39,001 nucleotides of DNA from IMG/VR virus record IMGVR_UViG_3300047476_000227, positions 1 through 39,001 of that record. One strand, given 5' to 3'. The notes beneath the pieces are model-generated. The model worked only from the letters and a program-made list of their open reading frames with translations, ran no database searches and was not told where the DNA came from. Source of the stretch: a virus. A program made the position numbers and the translations under genes. Positions 13,049-31,685 of this stretch are shown in pieces (within the stretch, counting starts at the first letter, position 1; every line of letters starts with the position of its first letter).

Positions 13049-14148
13049 GCAACGTAACTGTAAACGTCATTGACGGAAACAACGTAAACCTTGAAGTAGT
13101 CCCACAACCTCGCGTAGAGGCTAGGATTGATCGTGGTGTATCTGGACCTACTGGCCCAACTGGACCTACAGGCGCACAAGGCGTTGTTGGACCAACTGGC
13201 CCAACGGGACAAACTGGTCCTACAGGGCCGACAGGTGCTGCTTCCACTGTTGCTGGACCCACTGGCCCCACAGGCTTGACAGGTCCAACGGGTCCAACGG
13301 GCGCAGCATCAACTGTTGCTGGTCCAACAGGACCAACAGGTTTAACTGGTCCTACTGGTCCAACTGGTGCAGCTTCTACAGTTGCCGGACCTACTGGCCC
13401 TACTGGCCCTACTGGTTTAACTGGTCCTACTGGACCTACTGGCGCTGCTTCTACAGTTGCCGGACCCACTGGACCAACAGGCGCACAAGGTATTCAAGGA
13501 CCAACTGGTCCTACTGGATCACAAGGCATTCAAGGCGCTACTGGACCTACTGGTCCGACAGGAGCAGCTTCTACTGTGGCTGGACCCACTGGCCCAACGG
13601 GAGCAACAGGCCCACAAGGGGTTATTGGGCCTACTGGACCACAAGGCGATATTGGCCCTACAGGTCCACAAGGTATCCAAGGTCCAACTGGCCCTACAGG
13701 TGCGGCTTCTACGGTCGCTGGTCCTACAGGACCGACAGGCGCAACTGGTTTAACTGGGCCAACAGGTCCAACAGGCAGTGCAGGTGCAATTGGTCCTACT
13801 GGACCGACAGGCGCTATGTACGGCAGTCGTGTGGTGTCTTATGCTGATGCAACAAGCATCACCATGAACGCTGATACGACTGACATGGCGACAATGGCGA
13901 ACACTCAGTCTGCTGGCACGTTTACGCTGAATGCTCCAACGGGTACTTTGGCGAATGGTCAGAAGTTGATGTTCCGCATGACAAGCACCAACGTGCAGAC
14001 ATTTAGTTGGAACAGTGTTTTCAGAGGGTCAACCGATCTTGTTTTGCCAACAGCATCTTCTGGTGCTGGTAAAGAAGATTACATGGGTTTCATTTACGAC
14101 AGCACTGCTGTCAAATGGGATTTGATTGCTAAAAACTTTGGATTCTGA
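13045..14148 (+). CDS. Collagen-like tail fibre protein
   Basis: This 367-residue protein has a 30-residue N-terminal part, about 230 residues of Gly-X-Y triplets dominated by Gly-Pro-Thr, and a C-terminal head of about 105 residues beginning '[14 protein letters not shown]'. The triplets are interrupted six times by the heptapeptide GAASTVA. The C-terminal head resembles trimeric fibre heads found at the ends of other phage fibres. Collagen-like triple helices in phage fibres are known; Thr instead of hydroxyproline in the Y position is normal in bacteria. Confidence 0.9.
13225..13735 (+). repeat. Imperfect tandem repeats encoding Gly-Pro-Thr / GAASTVA units
   Basis: Six GAASTVA-coding segments alternate with Gly-Pro-Thr-rich blocks. 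The first three are spaced by 66 bp and the third to fourth by 75 bp. Synonymous codons differ among units (for example GCTTCCACT, GCATCAACT, GCTTCTACA), so the units are not recent exact copies. This is an intragenic coding repeat, not a CRISPR array. Confidence 0.8.
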
Positions 14149-28363: not shown

Positions 28364-28390
28364 TGCCTAGCCTGACTAGGCATTTTTTTT
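28364..28390 (+). terminator. Intrinsic terminator of the rightward early operon
   Basis: TGCCTAG and CTAGGCA form a perfect seven-base-pair stem with a five-base loop (CCTGA), followed by eight T. It lies 48 bases after the last early gene and is in the plus orientation. Confidence 0.88.
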
Positions 28391-28782
28391 CTTTATTTCC
28401 GAAATGCGTAGTGGCCTAACCCATTTTTTTGGCCCTAGTATTACTGGATGGGCATACAGTATTACAGGGTTTACCCTAGTTCTAATGGGCAAAGTCCTAC
28501 TTTTCATGCGGTTTTTATGGGAAAAAGCACTACAAAAAACGCCTGTTTTGCGTCAACCTAGCAGGCTTTGCCCTTGCCTGCCTGCCCTTGCCCGTTAACG
28601 CCTGCCCTCTATCGCTTGCCCGCCTTGCCCGTGCTGGAATACCGCTAAACCTGCCGCTTTGCTTGCCCTGCCTGCCGCTATGGTTTGCCGTTAGGCTTTG
28701 CCGCCTGCCCTGCCCGCCTACGGTTTAACCGCTGCCGCAGTAGCCTGCCTGTCGCTGCCCACAATGGCCCATAAGCGCCCAT
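28391..28782. other. Non-coding, C-skewed degenerate TGCC-rich region
   Basis: No convincing gene is present in about 390 bases. The first part has scattered CCCTA words and a palindrome AGGG-TTTA-CCCT (28466-28477) resembling the operator sites elsewhere. From about 28540 the plus strand becomes a degenerate series of CCTGCC, TTGCCC and CGCC words with very few G runs. It could be an RNA, a recombination hot spot or decayed sequence; nothing decides between these. Confidence 0.5.
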
Positions 28783-28864
28783 AAAAAACGCCCTAGGGCA
28801 AAGCATGGGCGAACCCTTGCAGCCCCCTAGGGCGGATCGCTTTTACGGGTAAGCGGGAACCGTT
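28783..28864 (-). terminator. CCTAGG structured unit, copy 1 (distal)
   Basis: On the minus strand the unit reads AACGGTTCCC, a hairpin (CGCTT/AAGCG, 28838-28842 with 28851-28855), then a long hairpin closed by CGCCCTAGGG/CCCTAGGGCG (28789-28798 with 28825-28834), then six T. The inner part can form GCA-GGG / CCC-TGC with a CGAA loop. It is terminator-like for the leftward operon, with extra conserved parts. Confidence 0.7.
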
Positions 28865-28872
28865 GACGCAAG

Positions 28873-28951
28873 AAAAAAGCCCTAGGACGTTTCAGGCCGT
28901 AACCCGAAACCCCCTAGGGCTTATCACTTTCGCGGCTTAGTGGGAACCGTT
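28873..28951 (-). terminator. CCTAGG structured unit, copy 2 (proximal)
   Basis: Same order as copy 1 with a period of 87-89 bases: AACGGTTCCC (complement of 28942-28951), hairpin CACT/AGTG (28925-28928 with 28939-28942), then AAGCCCTAGG/CCTAGGGCTT (28877-28886 with 28913-28922) with inner stem GTTTC/GAAAC, then T-run. The stems keep pairing while the bases differ from copy 1. The unit begins at the stop codon of the last leftward gene. Confidence 0.72.
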
Positions 28952-29189
28952 AAACCTTAATAAAAGCCTCTGAGCGTTGACAGTAGCGGCGCAAAACCTG
29001 AAAACAGGCTAAATACTCGCTTTCGGTAGAGGGCGGCTTGCACTGCCTCATGTAAGCCCGAGAGGCGCTAACGTGGCCTTCTCGCTCACTGTAGGCGGCG
29101 ATTGTCTTGTCTCGCTCTATTTGATCGGGGAAAAACAAAACGGGGACAAGCTGCCCCCCCATGGTTTCAAGTTTTACGTCAATTTTCAT
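28950..29189 (-). CDS. Accessory island hypothetical protein, last of operon
   Basis: This 79-residue protein starts at ATG 29189 with a GGGGG Shine-Dalgarno-like run upstream. It begins 'MKIDVKLETMGGQLVPVLFF' and has 'EREGHVSASRAYMRQCK'. No family recognised. It overlaps the preceding 49-aa gene by 11 bases, and its stop codon lies within the first tandem terminator unit. Confidence 0.62.
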   Translation of the reverse strand: MKIDVKLETMGGQLVPVLFFPDQIERDKTIAAYSEREGHVSASRAYMRQCKPPSTESEYLACFQVLRRYCQRSEAFIKV

Positions 29190-29328
29190 GCGGCCCCCAA
29201 AATGTCGCCTCAATTTCTAAGTCGTAAGCGATTTTGAGCAAAATTATGTCACCCGTTTTTTGCCACTTTTCACGGTGTAACCGTGCAAGCTCTTTCAACC
29301 ATGCGCGGCGGCTTTGTTCTTTTTTCAT
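29179..29328 (-). CDS. Accessory island 49-residue basic protein
   Basis: The ORF starts in a four-base overlap with the upstream gene's end. The sequence 'MKKEQSRRAWLKELARLHRE' then 'KWQKTGDIILLKIAYDLE' is a basic amphipathic helix followed by a second helix. Unknown family. The operon-type overlaps at both ends support translation. Confidence 0.58.
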   Translation of the reverse strand: MKKEQSRRAWLKELARLHREKWQKTGDIILLKIAYDLEIEATFWGPHEN

Positions 29329-29582
29329 GCGTCAACCTCGCCATAAGCTGACTCAATAGCGCGACCAGAATGAGCGCAAAAAAGCGGCTCGCCCTCCCAA
29401 TGAATAAAAACGTCAACGGGCGACCAGTCGCTGCCCGTTTCGCGTCTTATAAGGCGGTAATTCTCCCGCGCTGCCCGTGCGTCTATGGCTTGCCCGTCTT
29501 TCATAAGTAAGGCGCAAGGATAGCCGCCGGGCCATGAAAACCCGTTAGAACGAATGAAAGCCTGTAAAGTGTCTTTTTTCAT
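29325..29582 (-). CDS. Accessory island conserved small protein
   Basis: This 85-residue protein starts at ATG 29582 behind a GGGGG Shine-Dalgarno-like run; an upstream in-frame extension overlaps another gene and is rejected. 'FIRSNGFSWPGGYPCALLMK' and 'VFIHWEGEPLFCAHSGR' form a compact alpha/beta pattern that I have met in small betaproteobacterial phage and plasmid proteins of unknown function. Confidence 0.66.
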   Translation of the reverse strand: MKKDTLQAFIRSNGFSWPGGYPCALLMKDGQAIDARAARENYRLIRRETGSDWSPVDVFIHWEGEPLFCAHSGRAIESAYGEVDA

Positions 29583-29728
29583 GCTTTGCCCCCTTGATAG
29601 TCTATTGACGTAAACCAATAGTCGCACCCCATAAGATGCAAGACGTAAGCGCAAGCCCGAAAGCGGCGCGGCGCAAACCCTGCGTAATAGTCGCACTGAT
29701 CCCATAAATACAATTTAACTTTTTTCAT
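29579..29728 (-). CDS. Accessory island 49-residue protein
   Basis: This ORF has ATGA overlaps at both ends. It starts 'MKKVKLYLWDQCDYYAGFA' and contains three Cys and many Tyr/Trp. No family recognised. The sequence suggests a small compact beta/alpha protein. Real coding is supported by the exact coupling. Confidence 0.58.
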   Translation of the reverse strand: MKKVKLYLWDQCDYYAGFAPRRFRACAYVLHLMGCDYWFTSIDYQGGKA

Positions 29729-29967
29729 TGTGTAACCTCAAAAGTGAATTCAAGACAATCGCAAGGCAAAACGTAAGCCCTTGCATCATGGCCCGTACAA
29801 AAAAACGCTTCATGGCTTACGTCAACGCAAAACCCGTAGCCTTCCGCGCTTGCAGCGCTTTGCCACGCTTCAAGCTCGCTCGCTTCGCTTTCTTCAAGCC
29901 CGGAAAAGTCACCGTTGACAAGGGCGCAAGCCCAATGCGCTGGAAGTGTCAAAGTATCTGTTTTCAT
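29725..29967 (-). CDS. Accessory island conserved small protein (AHWACALVNGD type)
   Basis: This 80-residue acidic protein begins 'MKTDTLTLPAHWACALVNGD' and has 'DVSHEAFFCTGHDARAY' and 'CDCLEFTFE'. This type is widespread as a small hypothetical protein in phages and plasmids, where it often accompanies genes like the next two. Function unknown. It overlaps both neighbours by four bases. Confidence 0.7.
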   Translation of the reverse strand: MKTDTLTLPAHWACALVNGDFSGLEESEASELEAWQSAASAEGYGFCVDVSHEAFFCTGHDARAYVLPCDCLEFTFEVTQ

Positions 29968-30242
29968 GCTTCGCCCTTTCTGACCTTATCAATAGCGGCG
30001 GCGCGGGAGCCTGCCCTTACATAAGTACAAACTACTTGCCCGTCAAGCCACGCCCATACACCCCATACATTAGAGGGTGTCCCCCAATAAGCGCCGCCCT
30101 TGTCGTATCCATTGCCGCCGCCCTGCCGCCTAGCGTGTAACCGCTTTACGCCTTGCAGGTTCGCGGGGTTATCGCCACGCCTGCCCATGGGCGAACCATA
30201 GCGGCTTGAAACATCCGGGAAGGGGTTGAATTGTCTTTTCAT
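29964..30242 (-). CDS. Accessory island conserved small protein (GGAYWG type)
   Basis: This 92-residue basic protein is read from ATG 30242. It has 'GRRGDNPANL', 'GYDKGGAYWGTPSNVWGVWA' and 'VCTYVRAGSRAAAIDKVR'. The 'YDKGGAYWG' to 'VRAxSRxxA' arrangement is a recognisable small protein type frequent in phages, function unknown. Confidence 0.7.
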   Translation of the reverse strand: MKRQFNPFPDVSSRYGSPMGRRGDNPANLQGVKRLHARRQGGGNGYDKGGAYWGTPSNVWGVWAWLDGQVVCTYVRAGSRAAAIDKVRKGEA

Positions 30243-30246
30243 GTTT

Positions 30247-30501
30247 TTATTCCTTTGAAAATGCGTTATTCCACACAAAAACGTAATCGCCATTTTTCAA
30301 TTGACCGCCAAGTAATTCGCCATAAAACGGTGTATCCCACTCGCATTTGAGGGCTAAAGCTTCTGCCGCTTTGCGATGGCAAGCCTGCCCGCTTAATTCA
30401 TACGGATAAGGTATCGTTATTGAGCCTGCCTGCGCCCATGCTTTAATTCGTGAGCCACGGTTATTAGTGGGGCCAAAATAGCGTGTCTGTATTGCTTGCA
30501 T
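30247..30501 (-). CDS. Accessory island conserved small protein (QTRYFGPTNxRGSRI type)
   Basis: This 84-residue protein begins 'MQAIQTRYFGPTNNRGSRIK' and ends 'GDYVFVWNNAFSKE'. This is a very common small protein in proteobacterial phages, plasmids and islands. It often occurs in the same clusters as the two previous genes. Function unknown; a nucleic-acid-binding fold has been guessed from its basic beta-rich start. Confidence 0.76.
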   Translation of the reverse strand: MQAIQTRYFGPTNNRGSRIKAWAQAGSITIPYPYELSGQACHRKAAEALALKCEWDTPFYGELLGGQLKNGDYVFVWNNAFSKE

Positions 30502-30519
30502 TGTCTTATCTTTCGTGGG

Positions 30520-30615
30520 TTAGTAAGTAAGGATGTCAAAGTAAGCAAGGGCAAAGCCACAAAGGACAAGGCCCAAAGCTACTGCAAAAATTACGTCTAT
30601 CAGCTTTTCTTTCAT
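30520..30615 (-). CDS. 31-residue single-pass membrane peptide
   Basis: The ORF is in the gap between two island genes. It has a charged start 'MKEKLID' and one hydrophobic helix 'VIFAVALGLVLCGFALAYF'. It could insert in the inner membrane. No Shine-Dalgarno stronger than AACC is visible, so support is moderate. Confidence 0.42.
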   Translation of the reverse strand: MKEKLIDVIFAVALGLVLCGFALAYFDILTY

Positions 30616-30617
30616 GG

Positions 30618-30818
30618 TTAGGCTTTCAATGTGCGAGTGCTGCTAACTGTCTTAGCGATAGCGCAAAACGACTTCCAATAGTCTCTAGCTGCCTCCCTAG
30701 TGTCGCATCTCACCTTGTCAAAGTAGCCGTTATCGCAGCGCACCCTAACCTCTATCATCCCGGATGGCATTTGCACATCCCAAGTTACATATCCTTTTTT
30801 AAACATCTTGATCTTCAT
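30618..30818 (-). CDS. First gene of the leftward accessory operon
   Basis: This 66-residue basic protein starts at ATG 30818 behind GGAG. It begins 'MKIKMFKKGYVTWDVQMPSG' (beta strands) and ends with 'AARDYWKSFCAIAKTV'. No family recognised; the beta-then-helix layout with many Lys/Arg suggests nucleic acid or protein binding. Confidence 0.65.
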   Translation of the reverse strand: MKIKMFKKGYVTWDVQMPSGMIEVRVRCDNGYFDKVRCDTREAARDYWKSFCAIAKTVSSTRTLKA

Positions 30819-30845
30819 GGTGTATCTCCGGTTTCGGGCTTGCAC

Positions 30846-31387: not shown

Positions 31388-31466
31388 CGCCTGCCTGCCT
31401 GCCTGATCCGCACTTTCAGCGCCTCATTAGTAATACCCCTGTTTGCAATAAGCTACGCCCTAGGCC

Positions 31467-31685
31467 ATGCGGCAATCAAAATGTAATGCCCTAGGGCTAC
31501 CGCTATGCCATTTTGAAACTAAAAGTACCCCGTTTGGCGCAGGAGCAGGCGCGGGGTCAATTTCCGGGTGGTACAAAGTCAAGAGGGGGGAGTCTTTTGC
31601 GTGGGAATTCCCTAAATGTGGTACGCTTGCGCTACGCATCAAGACGCATGAGGATTGCGACAAGCCTGAAGCGGCACTATGTTGA
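31467..31685 (+). CDS. Doubtful small ORF before terminase
   Basis: This 72-codon ORF starts at ATG 31467 in the CCTAGG hairpin region. Its C-terminal half ('WYKVKRGESFAWEFPKCGT') has a protein-like look, but it has no clear Shine-Dalgarno and overlaps the candidate late promoter. I give it little weight. Confidence 0.25.
   Translation: MRQSKCNALGLPLCHFETKSTPFGAGAGAGSISGWYKVKRGESFAWEFPKCGTLALRIKTHEDCDKPEAALC
31655..31683 (+). promoter_or_regulatory. Candidate late promoter
   Basis: TTGCGA and TATGTT are separated by 17 bases. The site lies about 125 bases before the small terminase start and is positioned to transcribe the whole late region. Each box matches the sigma70 consensus in four of six positions. 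Confidence 0.4.

Follow-up and report, generated by a model that had tools for sequence, protein, structure and literature searches.

A tandem RNA element at the end of a variable phage operon: most likely intrinsic terminators, each preceded by a new structured leader

The leftward operon and its terminal element

The window, meaning the whole stretch of DNA analysed here, is a phage record that looks circular, with 39,001 bases and a 127-nt end repeat. By terminase, the named phage closest to it is Methylophilaceae phage P19250A (61% identity). Rightward genes flank a leftward operon of small genes that runs from 30.85 to 28.95 kb (Table 1). The product of its last gene, fam1, matches nothing in Pfam or PHROG; a confident AlphaFold model (pLDDT 91) consists of four strands followed by two helices, and a comparison of this fold with the PDB returned nothing below an E value of 0.7 and no structural relative. 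Gene turnover within the operon is high between phages, with fam1 and the terminal element constant, and the operon is an accessory-gene island with a conserved exit. Elsewhere in the window, positions 13144-13792 encode collagen-like Gly-X-Y repeats (GPT repeats), probably part of a tail fibre.

Table 1. Features at the convergent junction of the window.
Feature	Positions	Strand	Remarks
Leftward operon	28950-30845	-	Small genes
fam1	28950-29189	-	79 aa; last gene of the operon, always directly upstream of the element
Unit 1	28873-28951	-	
Module of unit 1	28921-28951	-	ACGGUUCC-CACU-AAG-CCGC-GAA-AGUG-AUAA; CACU/AGUG hairpin by covariation; ACGG-CCGC pairing partial
Predicted intrinsic terminator 1	28873-28920	-	CCUAGG hairpin, inner stem, UUUUUU; -28.8 kcal/mol for 28880-28920
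Unit 2	28783-28864	-	
Module of unit 2	28835-28864	-	ACGGUUCC-CGCU-UAC-CCGU-AAA-AGCG
Predicted intrinsic terminator 2	28783-28834	-	CCUAGG hairpin, inner stem, UUUUUU; -31.8 kcal/mol for 28788-28835
Repeat-rich non-coding stretch	28392-28782		Between both convergent terminator sets; GGCAGG-like words
Predicted plain terminator	28364-28391	+	Of the convergent rightward genes; without a module

The element consists of two units of about 80 nt each on the minus strand. In each, a module composed of AACGGUUCCC and a hairpin of the CGCU/AGCG type is followed by a linker of 3-5 nt, a long CCUAGG hairpin and a U-run. The initial annotation had described tandem CCTAGG units with retained arms, compensatory stem changes and T-runs, and direct reading of the DNA agrees, with a spacing of 87 nt and 75% identity between the units over 59 nt. 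The stretch AACGGTTCCC (in DNA letters) is identical in the two units, and in both modules ACGGUUCC is followed by a 4-bp stem around a loop that contains CCG and A's. The short stems are CACT/AGTG in unit 1 and CGCT(T)/(A)AGCG in unit 2; the CCTAGG arms are kept in both units, the inner stems differ, and both T-runs are T6. The minus-strand folds are more stable than those of dinucleotide shuffles, with z values of -5.6 (0/200) and -3.6 (1/200). The position assigned to the units, after the leftward operon, is correct except that the last leftward gene has its TAA stop (28952-28950) partly within unit 1. The GC-rich hairpins and U-runs at the end of this operon support well the proposal of a terminator pair.

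Repeats at the place of the non-coding stretch differ in other phages of the lineage (GGTTCGCCAAT in L067; TCAGGCG and CATAGGC in L070), and the position is that of a fast-changing repeat tract.

Distribution among phages and searches elsewhere

Pattern scans of IMG/VR, together with protein and profile searches with fam1, yielded 22 phage contigs, the window included; these are the contigs with readable sequence after fam1, and the phages are mostly uncharacterised. The element is present after fam1 (77-80 aa) in 22/22, 0-17 nt past the stop codon. Eleven contigs carry doublets with a spacing of 81-88 nt (the window, L002, L003, L005, L006, L007, L008, L010, L011, L013 and L042), and eleven carry single units (L004, L038, L039, L048, L064, L065, L066, L067, L070, L119 and L122). 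The pair in the window is not a chance arrangement, since the scans show the same arrangement in other phages, and the existence of further copies in related phages favours the original observation. The carriers form one syntenic lineage in which fam1 identity is as low as 46%. Where both flanks are present, the common gene order is HNH, variable leftward genes, fam1, element and convergent genes (e.g., a DUF5856 gene), and the element occupies the convergent junction in every such case.

A search with a covariance model, R1, as proposed in the initial annotation, recovered phage records of this lineage with one locus each; its matches in 398 Pseudomonadota genomes look like GC-rich ordinary terminators or chance. 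Weaker opposite-strand matches in the phage records are the same palindromic hairpins, and no further unit was found by R1 across the window. The presence of one locus per record rather than many copies argues against a dispersed REP-like or mobile hairpin repeat. Two of the bacterial matches are leader-like, G062 (opposite the end of a glnA-like gene) and G185 (after an aminotransferase-like gene). The leader-like sequence is absent from the sampled relatives of both genomes, and none of the other matches to a leader pattern fitted to the two precedes a terminator, so that chance is the simplest reading of the likeness.

In the P19250A record the element was sought, including with R1, and no match was found. 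Searches of annotated phages and plasmids (INPHARED and PLSDB) by blastn and tblastn gave no real match to the element or to fam1; MW202738.1 has a weak fam1-like gene, and the element is absent from it. Rfam, at gathering and relaxed thresholds, has nothing above cut-off for the element. Pattern matches in GTDB contigs share only the seed words and were attributed to chance, leader patterns in IMG/VR outside fam1 loci have no terminator behind them and look coding, and the REP-like CCCGCTCATCCCCGCGAAAGCGGGG repeats of G395 form a different hairpin. The bacterial genome G203 (L081, L087-L092) has a dispersed terminator repeat, GAGGGGGTCTGGGGGATTCATCCCCCAGACCCCCTC, with five or more near-identical copies located where genes end. 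The element itself is real, conserved, under selection and lineage-restricted.

Covariation of the leader and the terminator stem

Covariation was counted on an alignment of 28 units (A2). The leader hairpin is paired in all 28, with compensatory changes: one position shows G-C, G-U and A-U, another C-G, U-G and U-A; two of the single units add the stem variants CGUU/AGCG (L119) and CGUU/AACG (L122). The terminator stem covaries strongly, with eight pairs changed on both sides and 97% of cells paired, and at least UUUU follows the hairpin in every unit (UUUUUU in both units of the window). The structure as a whole is 95% paired, whereas shuffled controls reach 83% and slid ones no more than 48%, and RNAalifold, unaided, yields essentially the same helices. 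Conservation at the sequence level is found in GGUUnCC, in the CC/AAA of the loop and in the two G's after CCUAGG, which are invariant despite varying partners. Leader and terminator occur strictly one to one at a fixed spacing, the duplicated unit included.

An additional pairing between ACGG and CCGU could possibly close an H-type pseudoknot, which the sequences suggest only faintly: 82.7% of cells are paired, several units are broken, and compensation occurred once (AGGG/CCCU in L066, also in L119 and L122). In a hand alignment this pairing has a p value of 0.016 for all units and 0.08 for distinct types.

These data bear on whether the units are plain double terminators whose upstream likeness merely reflects phage kinship. 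Although every copy lies within one syntenic lineage, as such kinship would have it, we give this explanation little credence given the covariation and the persistence of the leader invariants in phages whose fam1 proteins are only 46-60% identical. Mean identity between lineages also argues against it, at 75% for the leader compared with 62-63% for 60-nt flanks and 56% for shuffled leaders (terminator, 73%); because this measure is crude and close pairs inflate the flank values, the argument for selection rests on the invariant positions and the covariation. The view that the AACGGTTCCC module goes beyond a plain terminator is thus upheld by its conservation and covariation across the 22 phages, in which fam1 identity falls as low as 46%.

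Possible roles of the leader

Intrinsic terminators are usually seen as a hairpin and a U-run, with the sequence upstream drifting freely. The element shares with tandem terminators at operon ends its GC-rich hairpin, immediate U-run, place after the last gene and convergent junction. It differs from ordinary intrinsic terminators in adding a leader hairpin that covaries, bears a sequence signature and keeps a fixed spacing, and in the conservation of the CCUAGGGG arm sequence itself. This signature leader has stayed with its terminator despite duplication and deep divergence, so that the role of pre-terminator sequences can be tested directly, and the covariance model opens a way to the poorly known relatives of P19250A. 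Each unit is probably an intrinsic (Rho-independent) terminator with its own cis-acting, conserved, structured leader, placed in tandem to end the variable leftward operon. Of this explanation, the conservation, covariation, position and terminator anatomy are seen directly in the sequences.

In the mechanism that we infer, the leftward transcript of the accessory operon would run past the fam1 stop codon, and the leader would fold into the CGCU/AGCG hairpin, perhaps closed to an H-type pseudoknot via ACGG-CCGU. The long CCUAGG hairpin would form 3-5 nt past the leader, and RNA polymerase would release at the U-run. The leader may keep a distance of at least 28 nt between the stop codon and the terminator hairpin, and its fold beside the RNA exit channel may protect the terminator from a trailing ribosome or from competing pairings. 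The second unit, presumably born of duplication, would catch readthrough and so keep antisense leftward transcripts out of the convergent rightward genes; tandem terminators at an operon end that faces rightward genes fit such a role in insulation.

The distance from the stop codon to the terminator arm CCTAGGGG is 28-48 nt in 22/22 phages. In E. coli, terminators within ∼27-30 nt of a stop codon are subject to repression by the trailing ribosome (PMC4824070). The simplest role for the leader would thus be that of a structured spacer, since the observed separation matches this limit (PMC4824070). Spacing alone, however, would not need a conserved sequence, and unit 2 needs no ribosome spacer, yet retains its leader. 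As a spacer explains neither observation, the leader likely adds a further cis effect, on hairpin folding or 3′-end stability, or through a bound factor. Because its sequence is conserved, a role linked to a protein, a ligand or an sRNA is also possible, as is the self-standing RNA function, processing site or protein-bound element considered in the initial annotation. That it is a new RNA domain of regulatory function, small and possibly folded as an H-type pseudoknot, which through a bound protein or ligand controls termination where the accessory operon ends, thereby tuning antisense readthrough into the convergent rightward genes, seems quite improbable.

The anatomy of a unit resembles that of a terminator-ended sRNA, and the conservation of the 5′ segment exceeds what spacing requires. 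A cut near the fam1 stop might release a 3′-UTR-derived, trans-acting RNA of ∼80 nt, perhaps working with Hfq or ProQ, in which AACGGUUCCC would be single-stranded and followed by a pseudoknot or hairpin and a U-tailed terminator. We consider this reading, its proposed parts included, unlikely: complements of AACGGUUCCC occur in the phage at chance level (25 found vs 26 expected), unit 2, situated beyond terminator 1, would arise only by readthrough, and no Rfam sRNA reaches its cut-off, the best being STnc310 (RF02067) with 23.7 bits against a gathering threshold of 40 bits.

A conditional terminator was also considered, in which the leader switches termination, either by binding a protein or small molecule or by pairing with the GG in the CCUAGGGG arm, with readthrough yielding antisense RNA against the convergent rightward genes. 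An aptamer-like leader that accompanies each terminator one to one, the invariant GG of the 5′ arm despite its varying partners, and the possible H-type pseudoknot are consistent with such a switch. In the preQ1-I riboswitch, a small H-type pseudoknot precedes an expression platform, and the possible topology of the leader (GG-UUC-stem-loop-CC-A-rich loop, then terminator) would be similar. In preQ1-I an invariant, ligand-pairing C stands ahead of the P1 3′ strand; the corresponding nucleotide of the element varies (C/U/A/G), and the element controls no gene; the Rfam model for preQ1-I (RF00522) has no match in it at E values up to 5, nor in its relatives. With no downstream gene on the same strand, no conserved preQ1-like C, and no ligand, partner protein or covarying alternative pairing found, a switch of this kind is decidedly unlikely. 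Tandem structured units with a terminator are likewise reminiscent of type III antitoxin RNAs, in which ToxI-like pseudoknot repeats precede a terminator. The units of the element, in contrast, are ∼87 nt long and each has its own terminator, and no ToxN-type toxin gene was recognised among the genes around it in Pfam and PHROG searches.

CTAG is scarce in the window (positions 1-39001; 58 found vs ∼152 expected from base composition), and four of the seven CCTAGG sites lie within the element. This scarcity, the palindromic arms and the nearby HNH and terminase genes would suit an element acting as DNA through its CCTAGG arms, such as a packaging, replication or protein site. The U-run, the tolerance of G-U on one strand and the strict orientation to the gene fit RNA better, which leaves a DNA-level function very improbable. 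A further CCTAGG hairpin (GCCCTAGG ... CCCTAGGGC) at 31457-31497, flanked by the HNH and small terminase genes, has no T-run and is possibly a packaging or control site.
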